Of a stretch of 29,078 nucleotides of DNA, positions 1 through 29,078 are shown one piece after another. The DNA is from a virus. The notes beneath the pieces are model-generated. The model searched no databases. It was not told the origin of the DNA and saw nothing but the letters and a program-made list of their open reading frames with translations. Both the position numbers and the translations under genes were made by a program. Location: IMG/VR virus record IMGVR_UViG_3300021961_000447, positions 1 through 29,078 of that record; one strand, 5' to 3'. Within the stretch, counting starts at the first letter, position 1. The number at the start of each line of letters is the position of its first letter.

Positions 1-1263
1 ACTCTAAGACTTGGTAGCAGAATCATAGGTAAATGTATGATGGGTTCTACCTCTAATGCTCTTGACAAAGGAGGTGACAATTTTAAAAAACTATACCATG
101 ACTCAGACGTTACAAGACGAAATAAAAATGGACAGACTAGCTCGGGATTATATAGTTTGTTCATACCTATGGAATGGAACTACGAAGGATACATTGATGC
201 TTTTGGATACCCTGTCTTTGATACTCCAGAACAATCCGTCCTTGGAGTCGACGGCCAATATATCGATACAGGTGTCATAGACTTTTGGGAAAATGAAGTT
301 GAAGGACTTAAGCATGACAGCGATGGTTTAAATGAATATTATCGCCAATTTCCTCGTACTGAGGAGCATGCGTTTAGAGATGAAGCTAAAAATAGTATAT
401 TCAACTTAGCTAAAATATATGAGCAAATAGATTTTAATGAAGAAGCTGTAAGAGATGGTTTAGTAACAAAAGGATCGTTTGCTTGGGAAAACGGTGTTAA
501 AGATACAAAGGTAATGTTTACGCCAAATCCTAATGGTAGATTTTTAGTTTCATGGGTGCCTCCTAAGAATCTGCAAAACAATGTAATAGTAAAGAATGGG
601 ATGAAACATCCCGGTAATGAGCACATAGGCGCTTTTGGCTGTGACTCATATGATATATCAGGTACAACAGATGGTGTTGGTTCTAAAGGCTCGCTACATG
701 GCCTTACGATATTTAGCATGGAAGATGCTCCACCGCATACGTTTTTTTTAGAATATGTAGCAAGACCTCAAACAGCAGAATTGTTTTTTGAGGATGTACT
801 GATGGCAATTGTATTTTATGGTATGCCAATACTTGCGGAAAATAATAAACCAAGATTATTATACCATTTAAAACGAAGAGGTTATAGAGGGTTTTCAATG
901 AATAGACCTGATAAAATTTGGAATAAATTATCTATAACAGAAAAAGAAATAGGCGGAATACCTAATACATCAGAAGATATAAAGCAAGCTCACGCGGCTG
1001 CTATTGAATCATATATAGACAAATACGTTGGCTATAATGAAAATGGTTCTGGTAATATATATTTTAACAGAACATTGAATGATTGGGCAAAATTTGATAT
1101 AAATAAAAGAACAAAATATGATGCTACTATTAGTTCCGGGCTCGCTATTATGGCTTGTAATAGGCACTTATATCATCCAAAACCAAAATACGAAAAACAA
1201 AGTTTAGGTATACAAATAAAAAGATTTAATAATAAAGGAATGCACTCGCAAATAATTAAATAG
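1..1263 (+). CDS. terL: Terminase large subunit, 3' part (5' end outside window)
   Basis: The reading frame is open to the first base, so the gene starts upstream; the ATG at 37 is internal. The visible 420 residues begin at the end of the ATPase domain (coupling-type motif GSTSN, residues 15-19 of the fragment) and contain the C-terminal RNase H-like nuclease that cuts concatemeric DNA during packaging. Candidate metal-binding acids, counted from base 1, are D215 (in FGCDSYD), E280 (in LAENNKP) and D374 (in YDATISSG), spaced as in phage terminase nucleases. The Walker A and B part lies outside the window. The stop at 1261-1263 is one base before the portal ATG, so the two are probably cotranslated. 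The terminase-portal-scaffold-capsid order supports the call. Family identity comes from motif and context recognition, not a search. Confidence 0.9.
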   Translation, partial: TLRLGSRIIGKCMMGSTSNALDKGGDNFKKLYHDSDVTRRNKNGQTSSGLYSLFIPMEWNYEGYIDAFGYPVFDTPEQSVLGVDGQYIDTGVIDFWENEVEGLKHDSDGLNEYYRQFPRTEEHAFRDEAKNSIFNLAKIYEQIDFNEEAVRDGLVTKGSFAWENGVKDTKVMFTPNPNGRFLVSWVPPKNLQNNVIVKNGMKHPGNEHIGAFGCDSYDISGTTDGVGSKGSLHGLTIFSMEDAPPHTFFLEYVARPQTAELFFEDVLMAIVFYGMPILAENNKPRLLYHLKRRGYRGFSMNRPDKIWNKLSITEKEIGGIPNTSEDIKQAHAAAIESYIDKYVGYNENGSGNIYFNRTLNDWAKFDINKRTKYDATISSGLAIMACNRHLYHPKPKYEKQSLGIQIKRFNNKGMHSQIIK

Positions 1264-13695: not shown

Positions 13696-14295
13696 ATGAT
13701 ATTAGTAAAAGAGCAAAGAGATTATATACCATATGATCCTTCTCCGCTACAACCAATAACAAGAGCGACTGAAAAAGGTTTTCAAGTTGTAGATGTTCCG
13801 GCAGCTGTGTATAGCATTTTAAGCGAATTTTATGATAGATCTAAAATGCAGGAAGAAAATTATCCAGGAAAAGAACATTATTCAAAGCAAATAAGTTTTT
13901 TACAAGATATTAATCAATATCCAGAAAAAGTGGCATTTATAAAAAATGCTTTATTAGATATACACCAAGAATGGTGCGGAAGGGAACTAAAACCTGCTGT
14001 TGTTTATGGTATTAGAAGCTATAGTAATAATACTGTTTTTAAGGCCCATTTTGATAGACAAGATACTCATCATGTTGCATCAAGTATTACAATGGGTAAA
14101 GATGCACCTTGGAATCTTAATATACAAGATCATGATAAACAATGGTGGGGTGTAGATGTAGAACCTGGGCAAATGATTATGTTTGAATCTGGGTGTTGCA
14201 TGCATGGTAGATTAGACCCATATCAAGGAACTTATTTTGATAATTTATATACACATTATACATACAATGAACCATTTGCACCATACCAAGGATAA
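13696..14295 (+). CDS. 2OG-Fe(II) oxygenase, prolyl 4-hydroxylase-like
   Basis: A 199-residue protein of the size of the catalytic double-stranded beta-helix domain of prolyl 4-hydroxylases. Iron ligands are visible: H118-x-D120 (in AHFDRQDTHH) and the distal H170 (in CCMHGRLDP). The conserved-looking EPGQMIMFES lies just before the distal His, and the domain ends in a LYTHY strand. The usual basic residue that binds 2-oxoglutarate is not obvious; R172 is the nearest candidate. The family uses O2 and 2-oxoglutarate to hydroxylate a substrate, often proline in repetitive peptides. It starts 20 bases after the gene for the proline-rich tail protein, making those tracts the natural substrate guess (inference). 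A small-molecule or lipopolysaccharide substrate is the main alternative. No signal peptide is seen, so it probably acts in the host cytoplasm. Confidence 0.75.
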   Translation: MILVKEQRDYIPYDPSPLQPITRATEKGFQVVDVPAAVYSILSEFYDRSKMQEENYPGKEHYSKQISFLQDINQYPEKVAFIKNALLDIHQEWCGRELKPAVVYGIRSYSNNTVFKAHFDRQDTHHVASSITMGKDAPWNLNIQDHDKQWWGVDVEPGQMIMFESGCCMHGRLDPYQGTYFDNLYTHYTYNEPFAPYQG

Positions 14296-14404: not shown

Positions 14405-15458
14405 ATATATTTCTTTTGATTGGTGGTGGGGTGGTTTTAATAATATAAGGATGTGTTATGAAATGGTTGGGGCTATGTCATATGTATCTGGAAGAAAAAT
14501 TATTTTACCTCCTCCGGGCTATTGTTTATTTTTAGCTGAGCATCATGATAAAAAAACATTTTGGGATATTTGGGAAATATTAGATAAAAAAGCTTTTACT
14601 GATAATTTTGAATGCGTAGAATATAAAGACACTGAACTTATAAAATATTCTTCTGATCAGCAGAATTATGACGGCATATGCAAAGATATAAAATGCATAA
14701 TGTTTAATGATGAAGATAAAAATTGGGGGCCACAAAATTTTATTGGGAGATCACTAATATATCATAGCATAGAAAACATAAATCATTTTAATCAATTTAA
14801 TTGCGATAATAGGGATTTTTTGTATAATATAATGTCTGACGATAAAATAATACATTTTCCTAGAAATTTATTTGGGCATTTTGGATATCACGTATATCCC
14901 CCAAATGATATAGCCCGCAAAATAATACAAGAAAAAGTAAAAAACGGTGTTAAATTTAAACAAGAGTTTTTTTTACAAGCTAATAAATTAATGCCCGGTG
15001 ATTATGATGCTGTTCATATAAGAAGGGGTGATTTTAAATTTACACAAACAAAATGGACGGAAGATTTATATTCAAATCTTGAGCAATTATTGGATGGTAA
15101 AGTTAGAAATTCTGTGCCTTTATATATAGCCACAGATGAACAAGACTTATCATTATTTAATTTTTTAAAGAAAAAATACAATATAATTTTTTTAAAAGAT
15201 TTAATACAGGAAAGCAAAAGCAAAGAATTAGTTTTAGATACTATAATATGTGCAAATGCTTATAATTTTTTTGGTTCAAGAATGTCTACTTATAGTGATT
15301 ATATAAATATAATTAGAGGGTATAATAATAAAATAGACAACCATAGAGAGTCTTTAAATTTTAATAGAAATAAAATACAATACAATAAATACCCATGGGA
15401 AGTAGAGGCTTATAGCTGGCATGATTTATGGGGAGAATTATATTATGGAAAAATTTAA
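14391..15458 (+). CDS. Glycosyltransferase, protein O-fucosyltransferase-like
   Basis: A 355-residue protein; I use the ATG at 14391 rather than the TTG at 14376. It carries the three marks of the fucosyltransferase superfamily with GT-B fold: an N-terminal GGFNNIRM (14-21) followed by RKIILPPP (35-42), the nucleotide-sugar motif HIRRGDF (209-215), and a C-terminal GSRMSTYSDYI (about 295-305). The N-terminal pattern is closer to GDP-fucose protein O-fucosyltransferases than to GT11 enzymes, which hints at a protein acceptor. Donor and acceptor cannot be read from sequence. It overlaps the small upstream gene by 14 bases and the carbamoyltransferase by 14 bases. Position next to a Ser/Thr/Pro-rich tail protein suggests virion glycosylation (inference); host surface modification is the alternative. 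Confidence 0.7.
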   Translation: MKENKYISFDWWWGGFNNIRMCYEMVGAMSYVSGRKIILPPPGYCLFLAEHHDKKTFWDIWEILDKKAFTDNFECVEYKDTELIKYSSDQQNYDGICKDIKCIMFNDEDKNWGPQNFIGRSLIYHSIENINHFNQFNCDNRDFLYNIMSDDKIIHFPRNLFGHFGYHVYPPNDIARKIIQEKVKNGVKFKQEFFLQANKLMPGDYDAVHIRRGDFKFTQTKWTEDLYSNLEQLLDGKVRNSVPLYIATDEQDLSLFNFLKKKYNIIFLKDLIQESKSKELVLDTIICANAYNFFGSRMSTYSDYINIIRGYNNKIDNHRESLNFNRNKIQYNKYPWEVEAYSWHDLWGELYYGKI

Positions 15459-16905
15459 TTTAGGAGTACACGGCTCACATAACTCTACAATAGTCATATC
15501 TTATGGCGGAACAATACTTGAGGCTATAGAACTTGAAAGATGGGTTAAAATAAAAAATGCTGCATTTTTTTATTATCATCCAATACCAAACCCAATAGAA
15601 GTATTGAACGAAATATTAGATTATTTTGAATCTAAATACAATGTAAAAGAATATGATTACGCTATGATAAACTCATGGCCACAAGATCAAACAAAGCATT
15701 TAAGAGCTAAAAATATTATTCATGTACCTCATCATGATGCCCATGCATATAATGTAATGTACCATTCAGAAGCACAAGAATCATTAATCATTTCTTTTGA
15801 TGGCGGATCTGATAATGGGCATTTTAATATATATTTAGGTAGCAAAGGAAGTCCATTGCAACTAATACATCAATCACAAAAAGATTTGTGTGTACCATAT
15901 GCTGCATTAGGGCACTATATAAATGACATAAATAAAGAAAAAGATTATTGGGTTGGAAATTTAACCTATGCTGGAAAAATAATGGGGTTGTCCGCTTATG
16001 GTGAAAGAGACTATAAACTTTTTGAATATGTTACAGAACTTTATAATAGGAGTAATACTAATGAAGTAGGTGTTGCTCATAAAAATTGGGCTGATATATT
16101 TTGTAGTTGTAATCAATTTGATGATAATGCTAAAAATTTAGCATATGCAGCGCAATATATGTTTGAAAAAAACTTTGCTGATATAGTAATGCCTTTTATA
16201 TTTCAATATCCAAATAGAGAATTACAATTTACAGGTGGTGGGGCAATGAATATATTAAATAATTCTATTTATAAATCTTTTGTTTCGCCAAATGCAGATG
16301 ATAGAGGTATTGCATTGGGCTGTTTATTAAGTTTAATTAAACCACAAAATCCAATAGATAGTGCATATTTAGGCTCTGAGCCTTATGATAATATGCCAGA
16401 AGCAAAAAATATATCTATAAAAGAAATATCAGATATGTTATCTAATGATAAAATAATTGGTATTATACAAGGCAGAGCAGAATATAGTGCAAGGGCTTTA
16501 GGCAACAGATCTATATTATGTGCCCCAAAAGCTGGTGTAAAAGAAAGACTTAATTCGGAAGTTAAGCGCAGAGAATGGTTTAGGCCATTTGCTGCTATTT
16601 GCAGAGAAGAAGAGGCTTATAAGTATTTTAAAACTTTTGGTAAACATAAATGGATGACACATAACGTTAAAGTTATAGATAAAAGTTTTCCAGGTATTAC
16701 GCATGTAGATGGCACTTGCAGATTACAAACCGTAACTAAAGACCAAAATAAATTTATATATGATTTATTAGAATATCATCCGGTTTTATTAAATACTTCT
16801 TTTAATATTCAAGGGAAACCAATATTAAATACTTACAAAGAAGCTTTATGGATGAAAAAAAATACAGGAATAGATGAAGTTATAACCGATAAATATATAT
16901 TATAA
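15445..16905 (+). CDS. Carbamoyltransferase, NodU/CmcH family
   Basis: A 486-residue protein starting MEKFNLGVHG (ATG at 15445; the ATG at 15421 would lengthen the overlap). The N-terminal Kae1-like domain has the metal-binding HHDAHA (96-101) and SFDGGSDNG (117-125), and the C-terminal YrdC-like domain has GRAEYSARALGNRSIL (343-358), KRREWFRPFA (374-383) and LNTSFNIQGKP (449-459). These are the classic signatures of enzymes that make a carbamoyl-adenylate from carbamoyl phosphate and ATP and move the carbamoyl group to a hydroxyl, usually on a sugar or antibiotic. The usual GPRALG reads SARALG here, a variation whose effect is unknown. Following a glycosyltransferase, it most likely carbamoylates the added sugar (inference). 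Its stop overlaps the next start as TAATG. Confidence 0.9.
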   Translation: MEKFNLGVHGSHNSTIVISYGGTILEAIELERWVKIKNAAFFYYHPIPNPIEVLNEILDYFESKYNVKEYDYAMINSWPQDQTKHLRAKNIIHVPHHDAHAYNVMYHSEAQESLIISFDGGSDNGHFNIYLGSKGSPLQLIHQSQKDLCVPYAALGHYINDINKEKDYWVGNLTYAGKIMGLSAYGERDYKLFEYVTELYNRSNTNEVGVAHKNWADIFCSCNQFDDNAKNLAYAAQYMFEKNFADIVMPFIFQYPNRELQFTGGGAMNILNNSIYKSFVSPNADDRGIALGCLLSLIKPQNPIDSAYLGSEPYDNMPEAKNISIKEISDMLSNDKIIGIIQGRAEYSARALGNRSILCAPKAGVKERLNSEVKRREWFRPFAAICREEEAYKYFKTFGKHKWMTHNVKVIDKSFPGITHVDGTCRLQTVTKDQNKFIYDLLEYHPVLLNTSFNIQGKPILNTYKEALWMKKNTGIDEVITDKYIL

Positions 16906-19973: not shown

Positions 19974-22900
19974 ATGTTTGAATTTAACGGAATGCCTATT
20001 ACTTTAGAGCAAGTAGAAGAATCAGCAAAAGAATCCAATATGGATATTGATTCTTATATTAAAAAAGCAGAAAAAGATGGCTTAATTGATAAAAGAAAGC
20101 CCATAGAATTGGGAAAGTCAACTCCCACAACACCGGGTGCGGTTGTGGAGAAAACTGCAGCACCCGTTATGGATTCCAAGCCGGAAAATGGTTCATTGGA
20201 ATATACAGAAATTGAACCTTTTAAAGAATTTCAACAAAAAAAATCAATAATAACAGAAGAAGGCCAAATAGAATTAAGACAAGCTGGGGATGGCGAATTC
20301 CAACCAATTGAATTAAAAGAAGTTGTAGTAACAGGAAAAGATAAAACAAAAATAGCGGAAGCTAGAAATAGAGATATTCGTATAAAAAATATAGCTGCTA
20401 CTACTAATATTCCAAAAACAGCTATTTCTATGTCTGCAGGAATTGCGGCCACTACAATTGATATTTTAGGTGGTTTTATGAATTTAATTGATAAATATGG
20501 TGTAGCCCCTGTTAATTATGCAATTGGAAAATCTTTGGGATATGATACAACATTAAGGGCTGAGGTTGATGCTAGCATTGAAAATTATGAAGTATTTGAA
20601 AATGTAAGTAATTTACTTAGGCAATATACTATAAAAAAATATGATAAAGAAGGGAATGAGCAAGATACATTTTCTTTAATAGAGCAAGGAAATTATATAG
20701 ATGCAGCTGAATTAGCTTTTAACGAAGGCTTTAGTGCCGCACCTTATTTAGCTTTAAGTATTGCGAGCCCTGTTTATGGTAGTGCATTAATAGGGTCTTC
20801 AGTTACAGGGCAAGAAGTACAAAGAGCTTTGAAAGAAAGACCAGAAGCTACTTTAGAAGAAATATACGGGGCATCTGCCGCTAAGGGGGGAGTGGAATTT
20901 TTCACTAATATGATTGGCGGAGGTATGCAAAGAGGGATTTTAGGTATTGGTAAAAAATTAGGGGTAGGTACTAATGCTTATAAAGAAGCTGTTGATATTT
21001 ATACTAAAACATATTTAGGTAAAGTAGCTGATGCTGGAATAGGATTAACTAGGGGGGGTATTACTAATTTTATTGAAGAATGGTCTGCTTCAATGGGTAG
21101 TGCTATTGTTGATAGCGCTGTATATAATGACCCTTTTGAATTTAAGTCTGCAAATAGACAAGCGATAAACGAAGGGTTAATAGGTTTAGCTTTAGGTTCT
21201 CCTGTTGGTAGTTTAGGAGCGTTTAATTCTATTGCATCAAAACAACAAGCATTAGAATTCCTTGCTCCAAAACAATGGAATATAGAGTTGTCTAAGCAAA
21301 ATAGAAGGCTTGAAGAAGCAAAATTTGATTTAAATAATGCTCCTGAAAATAGAAAAGAAAAATTTCAAAAAAGAGTTCAAAAAATTGAATCTCTTATTAA
21401 AATGAAAAAACAGCAATTGCAAGATTCTTTTGATAATTTAACTAAAAAGGAAAAAAAGCAATATGCAAATAATTTAAATAAATCAGCAGAATCTATAGCT
21501 CAAATTGGAAATTCTAAATATACTTTAGCCGCTCAAGAAATAGCTAAAAAAGATTTTAATGAAGCTAATAAGCAAAATGAAATATTAGTAGGAAAAGAAA
21601 TATTTGATGCGGATATTGAAAAAAATATTAGTAAGACTTTAAAAAATACAGAGCGCATTGAAGAAGCTTTTCAAAAAGCGAAGCAAGAAGTAAAAAATGT
21701 AAAATTTGAATATATATCTGATATTCAAGCAGATTTTGATGCTCGTTTTGATCCAAATACGAATACAGTAACTATAAATAAACCTATTGCTCTTAAAACT
21801 GAACAGACTAATGTTATAGGCCACGAGTTATTACATTATATGATAGCTCAAAAATTTGCTACAGATAATGCTTCTATGCAGCCTTTAGTAGATAGTTTTA
21901 AAGATTATTTAAAAGAAACTCAACCTGAAATATATCAAAGAATACAAGAACGTATTGATATAAACTATACGGATGATGATGGGAATATAAGAAGCGGAGC
22001 ATTAGAAGAATATTTTAATATTTTTTCTGATCTTATTTCTAAAGAAAAAATTATTGTTAATGAGCCTGTAGCAGATAAAATTAAAAATTCAACTACCAGA
22101 TTTTTAAATGGTTTAGGATTTGGCTCTGTTAAATTAGAAACAGGTAAAGATGTATTTAATTTTATACGAAATTATCAAAAAAATATATCTGAATTTAAAT
22201 TTAAGCAATTAGGAGTAGATTTAAAATCTTCAAAAATACCTCAAGCTGTACAACAAGAAATACAACAATCAAAAGAATCAATATCAGGGGATCAAATACA
22301 AAAAGTATTTGATGAAAAAGGAAAAGATGGCGCTTTTGATATTATACAAGCTTATAAACCACTTACCTCTAAATTAACTAATAAATATAAAAATGTTCCT
22401 GGTTTTGACTTTGAATTACTTCAAAGCGAAATTGAAATTGGGAAACGCGGCTTATTAGACCTTATTAATGCTTATGACCCATCTAAAGGAGCTACGCTTA
22501 ATACATATATACAAGGACAATTAGCAAATAGATCTATTGAAGCTGCTAATCGTATATTAGATACTGATTTTAAATTAGATGTAACTGAAGCTAAAGGTAT
22601 TACAGATACAACTACAGAAGAAATTACAGAAGATGTTATAGAAAAACCATCTGAAAAATTACAAAGTTTACGCAAAAAAATGAATATTGGTGATGAAATT
22701 AAACCAGTTGTTTTTGATGCGGTAAGAAAAACTTTTGGAACAAAATTACCTAGCGTTACAGAAAAAGCATTTAAAATTGAATTAGAAAAAAGTTTTAGAA
22801 CAGAACTCAAAAAGCCAATTGCAAAATTAATGGGAAGAACAGAAGATTACAGATCTTTCCTTTCTAATAATTTTGAAGCTATATATGATGCATTACCGCA

Positions 22901-25900
22901 ATCTATAATAAATAAAAGGCTTGCTGAATTTGCAGAACCTGTTATGAAAGATGGTAAACAGGTTAGAGAAAAAACAGCAGAAGGTAATAAAGTATTTACT
23001 AAAAAGAAAATAAGTAAAGCTGAATGGATTAAATATTTTTTAGGAAGTGAAGTTGGAAGATCAACTCAAGGTACTAGAAAAACTGCTTTAGCGGAAGCGT
23101 TGTCAGAAGCACTTGGTTTAGACGCTACAATGGAAGTATTATCTGATCCGGCTATTATGCAAAAAGCAATGGATATTGCAGAATTACAAGGAATTGAATT
23201 AACAGATAATTTTGTAGACAAGGTAAGTAGCATAATTGGCAGACCTATTAATTTTAAATTTAGCAAAGCTAGAACAGCATTAAATCTTCCTGCAGGAGCT
23301 ATAGATTTTAAAAATAAAAGCCAGGTATTATCTGCTAGAAAAGCAATGCTTGAATTAGCAAAAATATTAGGACCTGAAAAAGCGGTTCAATATTTATTGC
23401 CTACTGTACAAGGGGGATGGGGTAGTATTGGTGGAAAATTTATACCAGAAAAAGATATAAATAAATTAATTGTAAAAGAATTAGAAGATCCAAATGATAA
23501 AAATTCTTTTAGAACAAATCAATTTTTATTTATTGGAAGAGCGGATTTTTTTGAAGAAGCTAAAAAAATATTTAATAGTGTAGAATATAAAAAACGAAAA
23601 AGATTTGTTAATATAAATGGGGAAGAAATACCAATATTAGCAGTTCCTAAGCAAACTCCAAAAGGATTTACTAGTGGAAAATTTGAAGGAAAACAATTAG
23701 AAAATAGATTGTATTTTGCTCGAACACAAAGAGAAGGATTAGAAAAAATTATAGACTCTATAAAAGAATTATACACAAATAATCAAATTACAAAAAATGA
23801 TGTAGGTATGATTTTAGCTACATTTAATTCTAGTATAAATGCTTTAATTAGGACTGCAGCTTATCCAGGTCTTCAATTTAAAATTGATGGATTAAAAGAT
23901 GGGGATTATAGATATGAGCACACACAAACAGCATCTGATACTTTAACCGATTTAGCTAAATATATAACTATAAAAGATTATAAATTTACATTTAATGATA
24001 TTATGCAAGGATTTAGAGTAGCTATAATACCTAAATCTTATGATAAAATTGTAAATTCTACTGGTTTTAAAAGTAATGGCCCAAGAGATACAAATGGAGA
24101 TTTAATAAAAGGTAGAAGTACAAATGTAATAAGATATAATCAAAAAGAAGTTATTGAAATTTTTGAAAATGAAAATTTACCTAAATTAGAATTAGAAGAT
24201 TTATTAACAGAAAATTTAATAGTAAAACCTTCTAAATCGTTAAATAAAAAATTAAGAGTATTTGATTTTGATGATACATTGGCAAAATCTAAATCTAATG
24301 TATTATATACTATGCCTAATGGTACTAAAGGAAAATTAAATGCTGAACAATTTGCAAAACAAGGTGATGATTTACTGCAGCAAGGCGCTGAATTTGATTT
24401 TTCTGAATTTTCAAAAGTTATTGAAGGACAAAAAGGACCAATGTTTGATGTAGCAAAAGCTATATTAGATAAAAGAGGTGATGAAGATTTATTTATATTA
24501 ACCGCAAGGCCAGCTGAAGCTAAATATGCAATACAACCTTTTTTAGAGGGTTTAGGATTGCCATTTAGACTAGAAAATATAATTGGTTTAGGAAACGGTT
24601 CACCACAAGCAAAAGCTGACTGGATTGCTTCTAAATTGAATTTAGGATATAATGATGTGTATTTTGCTGATGATGCTTTAAAAAATGTACAAGCCGTGGC
24701 TAAAACATTGTCTGCGTATGACATAAAATACAGGTCACAAGCCGTAAAAGCCTCTAAATCATTAGATACTGAATTTAATAAAATATTACAAGAATCTACA
24801 GGTGTTGAATTTTATAAAGAATATTCACCTGTTAAAGCAGAGCTTTTAGGAAGAGGTAAAGGCAAATTTAAATTTTTTGTACCTTATGATGCTGATGATT
24901 TTGTAGGTTTGCTATACACAACTTTAGCTAAAGGCAAATCCGGTGACGCTCAAATGGAATGGTATAAAGAAAATTTACTTAAACCATTTTCTCGTGGTAT
25001 TCAACAATATGAAGCCGCTAAACAAAGAGCACTTAGAGATTGGGCGGATTTAAAAGCGCAAATTAAAAAAGATGTTCCTGCTGGTTTAAATAAACAAAAT
25101 GAAACCGGATTTAGAAATCAAGATTCTGTACGTGTATATATTTGGCATACTCAAGGCGCTGATATGACATCAAAAGAAATGGGTATGAGTAAATCTGATT
25201 TAAATGATAATTTAAAATATATTCGAAACAATCCAGCATTAAAAGCTTTTGCAGATAAATTAATGGCTTTAAATGTTGATGGGTATCCTGATCCTACAAC
25301 AAATTGGACAGCTGGTGATATTACAACTGATCTTGTTTCTTATATTAATGATGTAAAAAGAAAAGAATATTTACAACCATGGAAAGATAATATTGATATA
25401 ATATTTTCTGATAAAAATAAAAACAAACTTAAAGCATTATATGGCAATAGCTATATAGAATCATTAGATGACATGCTTTATAGAATGTGGAATGGCAGAA
25501 ACAGAAGAGTTGGTATTACTAAAAAAGAAAGAGCATTTCAAGATTGGATAAATAATTCTGTTGGAACTGTAATGTTCTTTAACTCTCGTTCTGCATTACT
25601 ACAAACTATATCAGCAATTAACTTTATTAATTTTACAGACAATAATCCAATTAATGCAGCCGCGGCTTTTGCTAATCAAAAACAATATTGGACTGACTTT
25701 TCTGAATTATTTAACTCTGACTTTTTAAAGCAAAGAAGATCCGGATTACAAATAGATATTAATGCTGATGAAATTGCTAGTGCAGCGGCTACTTCAAGAA
25801 ATAAAGCTAAAGCAGCATTAAGTGCAATACTTAAATTTGGATTTACACCAACACAAATCGCTGACTCATTTGCTATTGCTTCTGGTGGTGCAACATTTTA

Positions 25901-26786
25901 TCGAAATAGAATAAAAAAATATTTAAAAGAAGGATTAACACAAGAAGAAGCACAAAAGAAAGCATTTGAAGATTTTCAAGAAACAGCTGAAGAATCACAA
26001 CAATCTGCAAGACCCGATAGAATTTCAATGCAGCAAGCTAGTTCTTTAGGCAGAACTATTCTAGCTTGGGGTAATACACCAATGCAATATGCTCGCATAC
26101 AAAAGAAGGCTGCACTAGATTTAATTAATGGAAGAGGCGATTGGAAGACAAATGTTAGTAAGATTATGTATTATGGCGTAATACAGAATATTATATTCTC
26201 TGCTTTGCAACAAGGAATGTTTGCTTTATTGTTTTCTGATGAAGAAGATGAAAAAGAAAAAGAAAGATATTTTAGAGTTGGGAACTCAATGCTTGATACA
26301 TTTTTGCGTGGAGCTGGTATTTATGGCGCAGTTGCATCAACAGCAAAGAATGTAATAATGGAAATAATTGATCAGGCTAAATCAAGTCGTCCTGATTATA
26401 CACAAGCAGCAATTGCGGCAACTACAATTTCACCTCCTGTAAATTCTAAATTACGTAAATTAATATCAGCTGGTAAAACTTTTACTTACAAGCAATCAAA
26501 AGAAAAAGTATTCACTGAAGGATTTAGTTTAGAAAATCCAGCATTTTTAGCAGGTGGGCAAGTAATATCTGCTGTAGCAAATATACCTGTTGATAGAATT
26601 GTACAAAAAGCAGATCATATTTATACTGCTATGAAACCTGAAACTGAATTATGGCAATCAATAGCTCTATCATTAGGATGGTCTGAATGGGATCTAAATA
26701 TGATTGAAAAACAAACTAAAAAACCGTCAACTATATACAAAACATCTAAATCAAGAGGATCAAGAAAATCAAGAAATACAAGATGA
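19974..26786 (+). CDS. Giant internal virion protein with zincin-like, sigma-region-2-like and HAD-phosphatase-like segments
   Basis: A 2270-residue protein, the largest in the window. Order of parts: short N-terminal helix; a Pro/Thr linker (about 43-75) with richer GC; hydrophobic segments (about 149-173, 254-280 and 305-420); coiled coil (about 430-600); a zincin motif H617-E-L-L-H621 with a possible third ligand E678 or E679; a helical stretch (790-862) resembling sigma-70 region 2 (NAYDPSKGATLNTYI around Y834-I846); a HAD domain with FDFDDT (1430-1435), LTARP (about 1509-1513), K1547 and FADDA (1564-1568); and a long helical C-terminus with a hydrophobic stretch near 2065-2090 and a basic end. 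Size and position fit the large internal virion protein injected with the DNA (T7 gp16 position). Which enzymatic parts are active is unknown. Confidence 0.7.
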   Translation: MFEFNGMPITLEQVEESAKESNMDIDSYIKKAEKDGLIDKRKPIELGKSTPTTPGAVVEKTAAPVMDSKPENGSLEYTEIEPFKEFQQKKSIITEEGQIELRQAGDGEFQPIELKEVVVTGKDKTKIAEARNRDIRIKNIAATTNIPKTAISMSAGIAATTIDILGGFMNLIDKYGVAPVNYAIGKSLGYDTTLRAEVDASIENYEVFENVSNLLRQYTIKKYDKEGNEQDTFSLIEQGNYIDAAELAFNEGFSAAPYLALSIASPVYGSALIGSSVTGQEVQRALKERPEATLEEIYGASAAKGGVEFFTNMIGGGMQRGILGIGKKLGVGTNAYKEAVDIYTKTYLGKVADAGIGLTRGGITNFIEEWSASMGSAIVDSAVYNDPFEFKSANRQAINEGLIGLALGSPVGSLGAFNSIASKQQALEFLAPKQWNIELSKQNRRLEEAKFDLNNAPENRKEKFQKRVQKIESLIKMKKQQLQDSFDNLTKKEKKQYANNLNKSAESIAQIGNSKYTLAAQEIAKKDFNEANKQNEILVGKEIFDADIEKNISKTLKNTERIEEAFQKAKQEVKNVKFEYISDIQADFDARFDPNTNTVTINKPIALKTEQTNVIGHELLHYMIAQKFATDNASMQPLVDSFKDYLKETQPEIYQRIQERIDINYTDDDGNIRSGALEEYFNIFSDLISKEKIIVNEPVADKIKNSTTRFLNGLGFGSVKLETGKDVFNFIRNYQKNISEFKFKQLGVDLKSSKIPQAVQQEIQQSKESISGDQIQKVFDEKGKDGAFDIIQAYKPLTSKLTNKYKNVPGFDFELLQSEIEIGKRGLLDLINAYDPSKGATLNTYIQGQLANRSIEAANRILDTDFKLDVTEAKGITDTTTEEITEDVIEKPSEKLQSLRKKMNIGDEIKPVVFDAVRKTFGTKLPSVTEKAFKIELEKSFRTELKKPIAKLMGRTEDYRSFLSNNFEAIYDALPQSIINKRLAEFAEPVMKDGKQVREKTAEGNKVFTKKKISKAEWIKYFLGSEVGRSTQGTRKTALAEALSEALGLDATMEVLSDPAIMQKAMDIAELQGIELTDNFVDKVSSIIGRPINFKFSKARTALNLPAGAIDFKNKSQVLSARKAMLELAKILGPEKAVQYLLPTVQGGWGSIGGKFIPEKDINKLIVKELEDPNDKNSFRTNQFLFIGRADFFEEAKKIFNSVEYKKRKRFVNINGEEIPILAVPKQTPKGFTSGKFEGKQLENRLYFARTQREGLEKIIDSIKELYTNNQITKNDVGMILATFNSSINALIRTAAYPGLQFKIDGLKDGDYRYEHTQTASDTLTDLAKYITIKDYKFTFNDIMQGFRVAIIPKSYDKIVNSTGFKSNGPRDTNGDLIKGRSTNVIRYNQKEVIEIFENENLPKLELEDLLTENLIVKPSKSLNKKLRVFDFDDTLAKSKSNVLYTMPNGTKGKLNAEQFAKQGDDLLQQGAEFDFSEFSKVIEGQKGPMFDVAKAILDKRGDEDLFILTARPAEAKYAIQPFLEGLGLPFRLENIIGLGNGSPQAKADWIASKLNLGYNDVYFADDALKNVQAVAKTLSAYDIKYRSQAVKASKSLDTEFNKILQESTGVEFYKEYSPVKAELLGRGKGKFKFFVPYDADDFVGLLYTTLAKGKSGDAQMEWYKENLLKPFSRGIQQYEAAKQRALRDWADLKAQIKKDVPAGLNKQNETGFRNQDSVRVYIWHTQGADMTSKEMGMSKSDLNDNLKYIRNNPALKAFADKLMALNVDGYPDPTTNWTAGDITTDLVSYINDVKRKEYLQPWKDNIDIIFSDKNKNKLKALYGNSYIESLDDMLYRMWNGRNRRVGITKKERAFQDWINNSVGTVMFFNSRSALLQTISAINFINFTDNNPINAAAAFANQKQYWTDFSELFNSDFLKQRRSGLQIDINADEIASAAATSRNKAKAALSAILKFGFTPTQIADSFAIASGGATFYRNRIKKYLKEGLTQEEAQKKAFEDFQETAEESQQSARPDRISMQQASSLGRTILAWGNTPMQYARIQKKAALDLINGRGDWKTNVSKIMYYGVIQNIIFSALQQGMFALLFSDEEDEKEKERYFRVGNSMLDTFLRGAGIYGAVASTAKNVIMEIIDQAKSSRPDYTQAAIAATTISPPVNSKLRKLISAGKTFTYKQSKEKVFTEGFSLENPAFLAGGQVISAVANIPVDRIVQKADHIYTAMKPETELWQSIALSLGWSEWDLNMIEKQTKKPSTIYKTSKSRGSRKSRNTR

Positions 26787-27657: not shown

Positions 27658-27688
27658 AAAAAGGGGCCGCAAAGCCCCTTAATTTTTT
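27656..27688. terminator. Bidirectional terminator between convergent genes
   Basis: AAGGGGC (27661-27667) pairs with GCCCCTT (27674-27680) around a 6-base loop. There is an A-run on the left (27656-27662) and TTTTTT on the right (27683-27688). Read on the + strand it ends the late operon; read on the - strand the A-run becomes the T-tract and ends the reductase transcript. It overlaps the stop codons of both flanking genes. Confidence 0.85.
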
Positions 27689-29078
27689 ACCCGTCACAAG
27701 ATAAACAATCTGGATCCATTGCTTTAGCAGCAATATCACCTCTCAATACGGATTCAGTTCTCATATAATATAAAGTTTTAATACCGCGTTTCCATGCTTC
27801 CATATGGACTTTATTAATCCACTTAGGTTCAGCTACAGATGGAAATGCTAAATTCAAACTTACAGACTGATCTATATAGTCTTGTCTAATGCCTGCTTGA
27901 TTAACCAATTCTAATTGGTTTATTTCTTTAAATGTTTTAAATACATTCTTCACAGGCTCACCTTCCTCTTCATTTAATCTTCCAAGGTGGTCGTAAAACC
28001 ATCCATCGAGTTTTTTAATTCCTTGAACGGATCCACCGTCTTGCAGAATTTTATCCCAAGTTTCTTTGGTATCAATACCAATTTTCCTAAGTATTTTTTT
28101 AAGTTCATTATTCTTTCTTATAAATGTTCCTTTTGCACTTTGCTCAGTAAATACGTTAGCAGCCCAAGGCTCAATTCCAGCAGATACGTTGCCACTAAGC
28201 TTGCTGTTAGAGACTGTAGGGGCCAAAGCCCGAAGATGAGTGTTGCGCATACCAGTGCCCACACACCAGAGCGGCTCCCCATATATTTCTGCAAGCTTTC
28301 GCGAAGCTCTTTCAGATTCAATTTTAATTTTACTAAAAATTTCACGTGTTTTAAATTGTGCTAATAAGCCTTCAAATGCTATTCCATTTTGCTGTAATAA
28401 TGTATGCCATCCTAATACACCAAGGCCGAGAGCTCTACCTTTTTCAGCAGAACGCACAGAGTTTTCAAAGCCCCGCATATTTTTAGCTTTCTGTATAAAC
28501 TCTTCTAAAACACCGTCTAAAAACCAAACAGAATCATACACTAAATTAGTATTCTTCCATTCATCATATTTAGCAAGATTTAAAGAAGATAAACAACAAA
28601 CAAAACTATGAGATTCATCTGTATGCAATACAATCTCACTGCAAATGTTTGTCATATGTACTTTTAATCCGTTCGCTTTATAAGCAGTTGGATTAGCCTT
28701 GTTTGTATTTCCTTTAAAGAGAATATACGGTTCGCCAGTAGCTTTTCGTTTTTGGAGTAATCGTCCCCACTTACTTCTTGCTTCAGCGTCACCGCTTTCA
28801 AGTTTTCGCATAAACTTATCACCAATGACAACACACTGATGTAAGTTAAGAGATTGTCTATTGACGTCTCCTTTAGGTTCTCTGATTTCCAACCATTCAT
28901 TAAAATCAGAGTGTTCGATATTGATATTAACGGATGCAGCCCCTCTACGTACTGATCCTTGATTGGTTGCGAGTATAGTTGAGTCATAGATCTTGCAAAA
29001 AGGGACAACTCCATCTGATGTTCCATTACCTGTAATTTTAGCGCCGGCGGGTCTTATCATATTAACTCCAATGCCAAC
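27687..29078 (-). CDS. nrdA: Class I ribonucleotide reductase large subunit, C-terminal part (5' end outside window)
   Basis: The frame runs to the last base of the window, so the start is missing; 463 residues are visible. The enzyme reduces ribonucleotides to deoxyribonucleotides for phage DNA synthesis. Counted from the first visible residue, the catalytic N144-I-C146-S-E148 matches the class I N-x-C-x-E triad with the thiyl-radical cysteine. PTVSNSKLSGNVSAGIEP is the phosphate-binding strand, KTLYYMRTES holds the radical-transfer tyrosine pair, and the C-terminus ends CLSCDG, the swinging redox cysteine pair. The tyrosine pair and CxxC tail favour class I over class II or III. It probably partners a small subunit encoded further along on the - strand. 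GC content is higher than in the structural genes, which may reflect separate acquisition. Confidence 0.93.
   Translation of the reverse strand, partial: VGIGVNMIRPAGAKITGNGTSDGVVPFCKIYDSTILATNQGSVRRGAASVNINIEHSDFNEWLEIREPKGDVNRQSLNLHQCVVIGDKFMRKLESGDAEARSKWGRLLQKRKATGEPYILFKGNTNKANPTAYKANGLKVHMTNICSEIVLHTDESHSFVCCLSSLNLAKYDEWKNTNLVYDSVWFLDGVLEEFIQKAKNMRGFENSVRSAEKGRALGLGVLGWHTLLQQNGIAFEGLLAQFKTREIFSKIKIESERASRKLAEIYGEPLWCVGTGMRNTHLRALAPTVSNSKLSGNVSAGIEPWAANVFTEQSAKGTFIRKNNELKKILRKIGIDTKETWDKILQDGGSVQGIKKLDGWFYDHLGRLNEEEGEPVKNVFKTFKEINQLELVNQAGIRQDYIDQSVSLNLAFPSVAEPKWINKVHMEAWKRGIKTLYYMRTESVLRGDIAAKAMDPDCLSCDG

Follow-up and report, generated by a model that had tools for sequence, protein, structure and literature searches.

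A divergent sigma domain 2 within a giant virion-type protein of uncultured crAss-related podoviruses

A preliminary description of the sequence had proposed that a virion-type protein contains a part resembling sigma region 2, and both sequence profiles and template-free structure prediction now back this proposal. Residues 769-866 of the giant virion-type protein P0002 are supported, by profile comparisons and by a predicted model, as a divergent sigma domain 2. The domain is related to sigma domain 2 by fold and profile and is not a bona fide sigma factor. We give about even odds (a probability of roughly 0.5) to the reading that this domain, carried in an ejected polyvalent protein, docks on the polymerase of the host and makes it favour the incoming genome.

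The window, by which we mean the whole 29,078-base virus record that was analysed, encodes in order a terminase, a portal protein, virion structural families and a crAss muzzle C-terminal domain. Judging from this order, the structural operon, which is that of a crAss-related podovirus, ends with the giant ORF (Table 1). All sequence elements that had been named for the sigma-like stretch were found in its translation. The extent had been given as sigma regions 1.2-2.2; these regions do match, but the match also covers regions 2.3-2.4, and the domain is larger, about residues 769-866 according to the AlphaFold2 model, in which these residues form a confident unit (pLDDT around 90) followed by a disordered linker.

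Table 1. Features of the giant ORF and its sigma-like domain, with positions in the window.
Feature	Position	Strand	Basis
Giant virion-type protein P0002, 2270 aa, carrier of the sigma-like domain	19974..26786	+	ORF list, relatives, positional counterparts
Putative HExxH zincin-like metallopeptidase motif, residues 617-621, plus E679	21822..21836	+	17 aligned relatives
Sigma domain 2-like domain, residues 769-866, sigma regions 1.2 and 2.1-2.4	22278..22571	+	profiles, model, conservation
Stretch of the preliminary description, residues 790-862, IIQAYKPLTSKLTNKYKNVPGFDFELLQSEIEIGKRGLLDLINAYDPSKGATLNTYIQGQLANRSIEAANRIL	22341..22559	+	translation
Helix aligned to sigma region 2.2, residues 813-824, FELLQSEIEIGK	22410..22445	+	model helix 64-73, hhalign, conservation
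Long helix aligned to sigma regions 2.3-2.4, residues 842-865	22497..22568	+	model, conservation
Linker after the sigma-like domain, residues 867-895, mostly pLDDT <50	22572..22658	+	model
HAD / polynucleotide kinase-phosphatase-like domain, residues 1421-1586, FDFDDT at 1430	24234..24731	+	PHROG 415, E 4.5e-5

Relatives of the giant protein were present in 364 of 374 candidate stretches of viral contigs. Using an iterative HMM of these relatives, built without any sigma sequence in its database, the domain was located at 49 places and later in 128 of 160 loci, where 80 of the 160 contain the domain by construction because they had been fetched with the domain itself. Among the first 80 loci, 32 gave no HMM match for the domain, at least four of these being short fragments. 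Two alignments were used in what follows, one of 39 members (the window and 38 of the 49 HMM matches, near-duplicates and one partial match being left out) and one of 64 members (the window and the 63 of 96 qualifying relatives that remained after removal of redundancy). The most divergent copies showed a sigma likeness of 0.8% by profile, a value obtained from an alignment that had drifted; extension of the HMM to these relatives ran into another domain and was dropped. The HMM found no match for the domain in the giant proteins of elemoF, MW202828, phi38:1, phi18:3 and Gundel_1, a tblastn search of the domain against 50,697 phage records returned nothing better than E 0.1, and tblastn of P0002 returned no match among isolates. 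In one relative (L061:6700-7341), two successive matches to the domain model were seen, perhaps a tandem or degraded copy.

Searches with the whole giant protein against Pfam, PHROGs and by tblastn gave no match at the sigma-like domain. The 102 window residues by themselves matched nine NCBIfam models at E<=0.1, all nine of which are sigma factors (SigK, the best, with E 0.0014; FliA/WhiG, 0.0087; SigB/F/G, 0.016), none scoring above its curated cut-off. No curated cut-off of a Pfam sigma family was passed by the window's protein or by the 39 members, among which Sigma70_r2 was the family matched by most (3/39, best E 0.0015), and scanning all 2270 residues against Pfam up to E 10 gave no Sigma70_r4 match. 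An HMM was built from the region 2 sequences of 14 bacterial sigma factors (those ORFs, from 35 loci, that were recruited by an RpoD seed; an ECF-enriched set comprised 35 ORFs), and with it the stretch of residues 790-862 scored 19.1 bits. Among 1000 shuffles of this stretch, 750 were reported, with a best score of 9.8 bits and none at 19.1, and the best non-overlapping window of the giant protein reached 1.1 bits.

Profile-profile comparison with sigma region 2, the check to which the preliminary description had looked, gave hhalign probabilities of 91-95%. Against 14 sigma factors of groups 1-3, the 17-sequence profile reached 91.2% and the 39-sequence profile 94.8%, while column shuffles (n=100 per alignment) gave maxima of 2.5% and 4.3% and the reversed alignments 0.3% and 0.2%, respectively. 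When 45 windows along the giant protein were compared with sigma, using the profile of the relatives, only the overlapping windows starting at 751 (91.5%) and 801 (77.1%) matched, the next one reaching 3.0%. The match to ECF sigma factors was weak (18% and 59%), and that to the sigma factor of the phages themselves was lower still (10% and 11%). A search of 177,635 PDB sequences with the HMM of 39 relatives placed sigma factors at ranks 1-8 of the 20 matches listed (E 0.0014-0.027), and with the HMM of 17 close relatives they occupied ranks 1-4 of 19 (E 0.034-0.19). The domain carries the YDPxxG..(L/F)xTY pattern at the spacing of the sigma family, with about four additional residues between regions 2.1 and 2.2 relative to bacterial sigma in the hhalign alignment. 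That the domain was recently copied from the sigma factor of the phages themselves was considered and rejected: in four versions of the phage alignment, hhalign gave 2-11% for phage sigma versus 81-95% for bacterial sigma, and the phage-sigma HMM scored the domain at 0.1 bits, a value that 99 reported shuffles attained as well.

A structural model of residues 750-1080 was predicted with AlphaFold2 from 64 sequences and without templates. In this model, the domain adopted a sigma-2 fold rather than a dissimilar structure or one in which the segment is buried in another fold. In VIA-align, the model superposed on sigma70 with Z 10.0 over 90 residues at an rmsd of 2.2 in the chain range 110..447, which in sigma70 numbering covers regions 1.2 and 2.1-2.4. 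All 50 listed entries were sigma factors, including three or four rows for 'integrative models' titled RPSH, RPSD and RPSB, which we take to be Bacillus sigma factors. Foldseek returned local matches to sigma factors with probabilities up to 0.94 and rmsd 2.5-2.6 for this model, and no match at E<=0.001 for either this model or the second one described below. VIA-align warns that Z values below about 13 may reflect an arrangement common in helical folds; the weight of the argument lies in the accord of all listed rows and of the sequence methods.

The second model was made for a divergent subfamily, which in the 39-member alignment shares 7-20% identity with the copy in the window. Here again all 50 listed VIA-align entries were sigma factors (best Z 7.6), as were all of the first 25 Foldseek matches, and T4 gp55 (PDB 7d7c chain F) was among the structural matches, with Z 6.5 over 101 residues at an rmsd of 3.7. 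The sequence profile of this subfamily found no sigma factor in the PDB, and its hhalign comparison with sigma reached 77%. In a search of viral predicted structures, an uncultured-virus protein came first (E 0.013), followed by phage sigma factors at ranks 2 and 3. The poor Foldseek E-values and the missed curated cut-offs speak for convergence, in which a small helical bundle of a widespread type, without kinship to sigma, would bear a YDPxxG...TY motif by chance; we regard this as highly improbable, since sigma was singled out by independent methods (NCBIfam 9/9, PDB ranks 1-8, structural rows 50/50 twice) and shuffled sequences scored far below the domain. Past the linker, residues ~896-1080 (22659-23213) form a second confident, mostly helical unit, for which no PDB match was listed.

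Conservation was computed over the 64 relatives. The twelve most conserved 10-residue windows of residues 750-1080 all fall within 818-866, that is, in the parts resembling regions 2.2 and 2.3/2.4, and R853, I855, R860 and L862 in the 2.3-2.4-like helix are invariant (64/64). The equivalents of sigma70 G408 and G411 are kept in 63/64 and 64/64 relatives, and the Y430 equivalent is tyrosine in 61/64. The region 2.2-like helix includes columns aligned to core-binding positions of sigma70. Of the five core-binding residues D403, Q406, E407, N409 and M413 of sigma70 region 2.2, only the first is kept, the D403 equivalent being aspartate in 46/64 relatives and serine in the window; the others are replaced (Q406 by E, E407 by T or I, N409 by K, M413 by L). 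As the preliminary description had correctly observed, WW-type melting aromatics are missing, G848 and Q849 standing at the positions aligned to W433 and W434. At the positions of W433, W434, Q437 and T440, the sigma70 residues for promoter melting and -10 recognition, the window has G, Q, N and I, and the commonest residues in the 64 relatives are K, F, A and I. The retention of the G408 and G411 equivalents as against the replacement of W433, W434, Q437 and T440 suggests that the scaffold of the core-binding helix was kept and the promoter-reading side rebuilt.

These residues also bear on whether the domain touches a polymerase at all. An ancestral sigma domain 2 might have been exapted, serving the ejected protein solely in DNA binding or assembly and having lost its contact with RNA polymerase; such a history would fit the partial retention of the core-binding residues, the divergence of the family until the profile-level sigma signal disappears, and the conservation of two basic residues, R853 and R860, in the 2.4-like helix. 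It appears quite unlikely to us, given that few stretches are as conserved as the 2.2-like core-binding helix and that its two glycine equivalents are almost or fully invariant in the 64 relatives. Immediately behind the domain, at the start of the linker (22569-22598), lies the motif F-x-x-D-V-T-E-A-K-G, in which F866 and D869 are present in 64/64 relatives and which could be a putative processing or docking site. Divergent relatives have T-T-S-x-D-x(3)-A-K at this position, with a slight likeness to sigma 3.2. Some relatives show, farther along the protein than the domain, an 'SLD' element reminiscent of sigma 3.2; it was sighted by eye only, and no claim is made for it.

Several observations connect P0002 with the virion. 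The nearest named relatives by portal protein are a podovirus from Manatee Spring with a genome of 60.8 kb (53%) and the Flavobacterium elemo phages (44%), followed by Cellulophaga phi38:1/Calle (37%) and phi18:3/Gundel (28%). In elemoF, phi38:1 and phi18:3, a large protein at the matching position is annotated as structural, and for phi18:3 gp123, the positional counterpart, the annotation note cites MS/MS proteomics. The C-terminal residues 1866-2091 of P0002 share 24% identity with the structural protein gp74 of Gundel_1 (E 2e-6). On the strength of its place in the operon, these annotated counterparts and the similarity to gp74, P0002 is most likely a component of the virion that leaves it together with the DNA.

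P0002 also has traits of polyvalent proteins, being giant and multidomain, with a putative zincin-like protease motif and a HAD/PNK-like domain. Upstream of the sigma-like domain, H617, E618, H621 and E679 are invariant in 17/17 aligned relatives. Of the polyvalent-associated (LPD) domains, there was one weak LPD14 match in 1/17 members (E 0.0069) and none in the window's protein. In relative L068, an AAA_33/Zeta-toxin kinase-type domain lies behind FDFDDT, resembling a full nucleic-acid end-repair enzyme. As described by Iyer et al. (2017; PMC5512222), polyvalent proteins are giant, multidomain, predicted to enter the cell with the DNA, and equipped with zincin-like proteases and nucleic-acid enzymes; jump-starting transcription is a theme there, and peptidases are proposed to process the polyvalent proteins. 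A sigma-2 domain would be an addition to this repertoire, the word 'sigma' not occurring in the main text of PMC5512222.

We then sought sigma factors and RNA polymerase elsewhere in the genomes of 13 long relatives (60-72 kb; loci L292 and L296-L308). A separate ORF with sigma region 2 was detected in 13/13 at E<=1, in 11 of them above the cut-off, and sigma region 4 in 12/13, seven above the cut-off. The majority of these ORFs, at ~245-263 aa, are full sigma factors, one of them matching TIGR02937 with E 2.4e-16; one record has two sigma genes, and in another the gene is split into ORFs of 95 and 164 aa. The sigma-like virion domain had no HMM match in the loci L016, L045 and L078, which correspond to 3 of the 13 long relatives, and a standalone sigma region 2 was found in 0/6 named relatives, five of which are those whose giant proteins gave no HMM match for the virion domain. 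The RNA polymerase beta-prime core family PF00623 was detected in 0/13 long relatives (control 14/14), in records that are possibly incomplete, and DxDGD occurred in none of the ORFs of at least 200 aa in one whole relative contig. An RNA polymerase within the giant protein itself was considered and rejected: P0002 has no DxDxD, the catalytic motif of the crAss-like virion polymerases, and PF00623 was detected in none of the 13. The absence of a polymerase from the relatives is less than proven, because parts of these genomes may be missing from the records and because the polymerases of the crAss type are described as very divergent (PMC7886860). With a sigma gene of their own and no visible polymerase, these phages would have the host RNA polymerase as the likely target of the sigma-like domain, judging from gene content.

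Contact with the host enzyme need not mean recruitment. The domain could instead act as an inhibitor or decoy that blocks or titrates the clamp-helix site, excludes the housekeeping sigma and shuts down host transcription without initiating that of the phage. A sigma-2 fold whose melting tryptophans and -10 contacts are replaced, in a protein with no region 4 match, could bind core and yet not read a normal promoter, and the phages carry a full sigma gene of their own for later. We think such a role rather unlikely, because a pure decoy could do without the 2.3-2.4-like helix, which nonetheless ranks with the best-conserved parts (R853, I855, R860 and L862 in 64/64 relatives), and because the copies delivered by one virion are few relative to the many polymerases of a cell.

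We return to the reading in which the ejected domain recruits the host polymerase. P0002 would be packed in the capsid and ejected along with the DNA, and its sigma-like domain would use the 2.2-like helix to dock on the clamp helices of the host enzyme's beta-prime subunit, which is where sigma domain 2 and T4 gp55 dock. Once docked, it would hold the polymerase on the incoming genome or bias it towards it, until the separately encoded sigma factor of the phage, once made, takes over. The computations show where the domain lies, its conservation, its sigma-2 fold and, in the relatives, its co-occurrence with a standalone sigma gene; the packaging, the ejection, the docking, and recruitment instead of inhibition, are what we infer. 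As a guess, the zincin part may cleave P0002 in the disordered linker and thereby release the sigma-like domain. A more specific version is put forward tentatively, and we consider it doubtful as a whole: that uncultured crAss-like podovirus relatives inject, as part of a giant protein that processes itself, a partial sigma whose DNA-contact residues are altered, that this partial sigma seizes the host polymerase at entry and starts transcription before any phage gene is expressed, and that the full sigma follows.

The closest precedents are T4 gp55, AR9 gp226 and PhiKZ gp68; none of the three is known to be delivered by the virion. T4 gp55 is a small, separately made late sigma factor that works with gp33 and the sliding clamp. 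It resembles the present domain in being a phage protein with a sigma-2 fold that acts with the host RNA polymerase, as the present domain is predicted to do, and differs from it in that the domain here lies inside a virion-type protein. With the sigma-70 family (PF04542; RpoS, SigK/SigE, FliA, sigma70), the domain shares the fold of regions 1.2 and 2.1-2.4, the spacing of the YDPxxG..(L/F)xTY pattern and the equivalents of G408, G411 and Y430. Unlike these proteins, it is embedded in a virion-type protein of 2270 aa, has the insertion of about four residues between 2.1 and 2.2, scores below the cut-offs, and lacks the melting tryptophans and a region 4 match in the same protein. AR9 gp226 and PhiKZ gp68 (PMC9209446, PMC7618050) are sigma-like subunits, hardly recognisable by sequence, of non-virion polymerases encoded by jumbo phages, and AR9 gp226 likewise has an insertion between 2.1 and 2.2; searches of the relatives studied here brought up no polymerase of this kind. 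Virion-delivered RNA polymerases have been described for N4, crAss-like phi14:2 (gp66) and P23-45 (gp96) (PMC7886860, PMC10770324); these are alike in that a transcription component is carried by the virion, which here would be a sigma-like domain with apparently no phage polymerase. The word 'sigma' does not occur in the main text of the crAss comparative paper (PMC7886860), and among the papers listed by full-text literature searches none described an injected or virion protein that carries a sigma-like domain.

Injection by phages has been established for complete RNA polymerases and for enzymes that modify the polymerase of the host. If the recruitment reading is true, these podoviruses would use a simpler trick, injecting only the part that positions the host polymerase, and this would explain the onset of transcription in a large marine podovirus group in which no polymerase can be recognised. 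Marine phages may then steer host transcription from entry onward, the hidden relatives of sigma would extend beyond AR9 gp226 and PhiKZ gp68, and the domain would offer a short protein in which host takeover can be studied at time zero.

Other genes of the window were observed in passing. Within the structural operon, a 199-aa ORF (13696-14295) matches PHROG families labelled ferrochelatase, and a Nol-like carbamoyltransferase (15421-16905; PHROG 1601, E 6e-96) is flanked by virion genes. Downstream of the giant ORF, on the opposite strand, 27687-29078 (-) encodes the large subunit of a ribonucleotide reductase, the ORF continuing past the end of the window.
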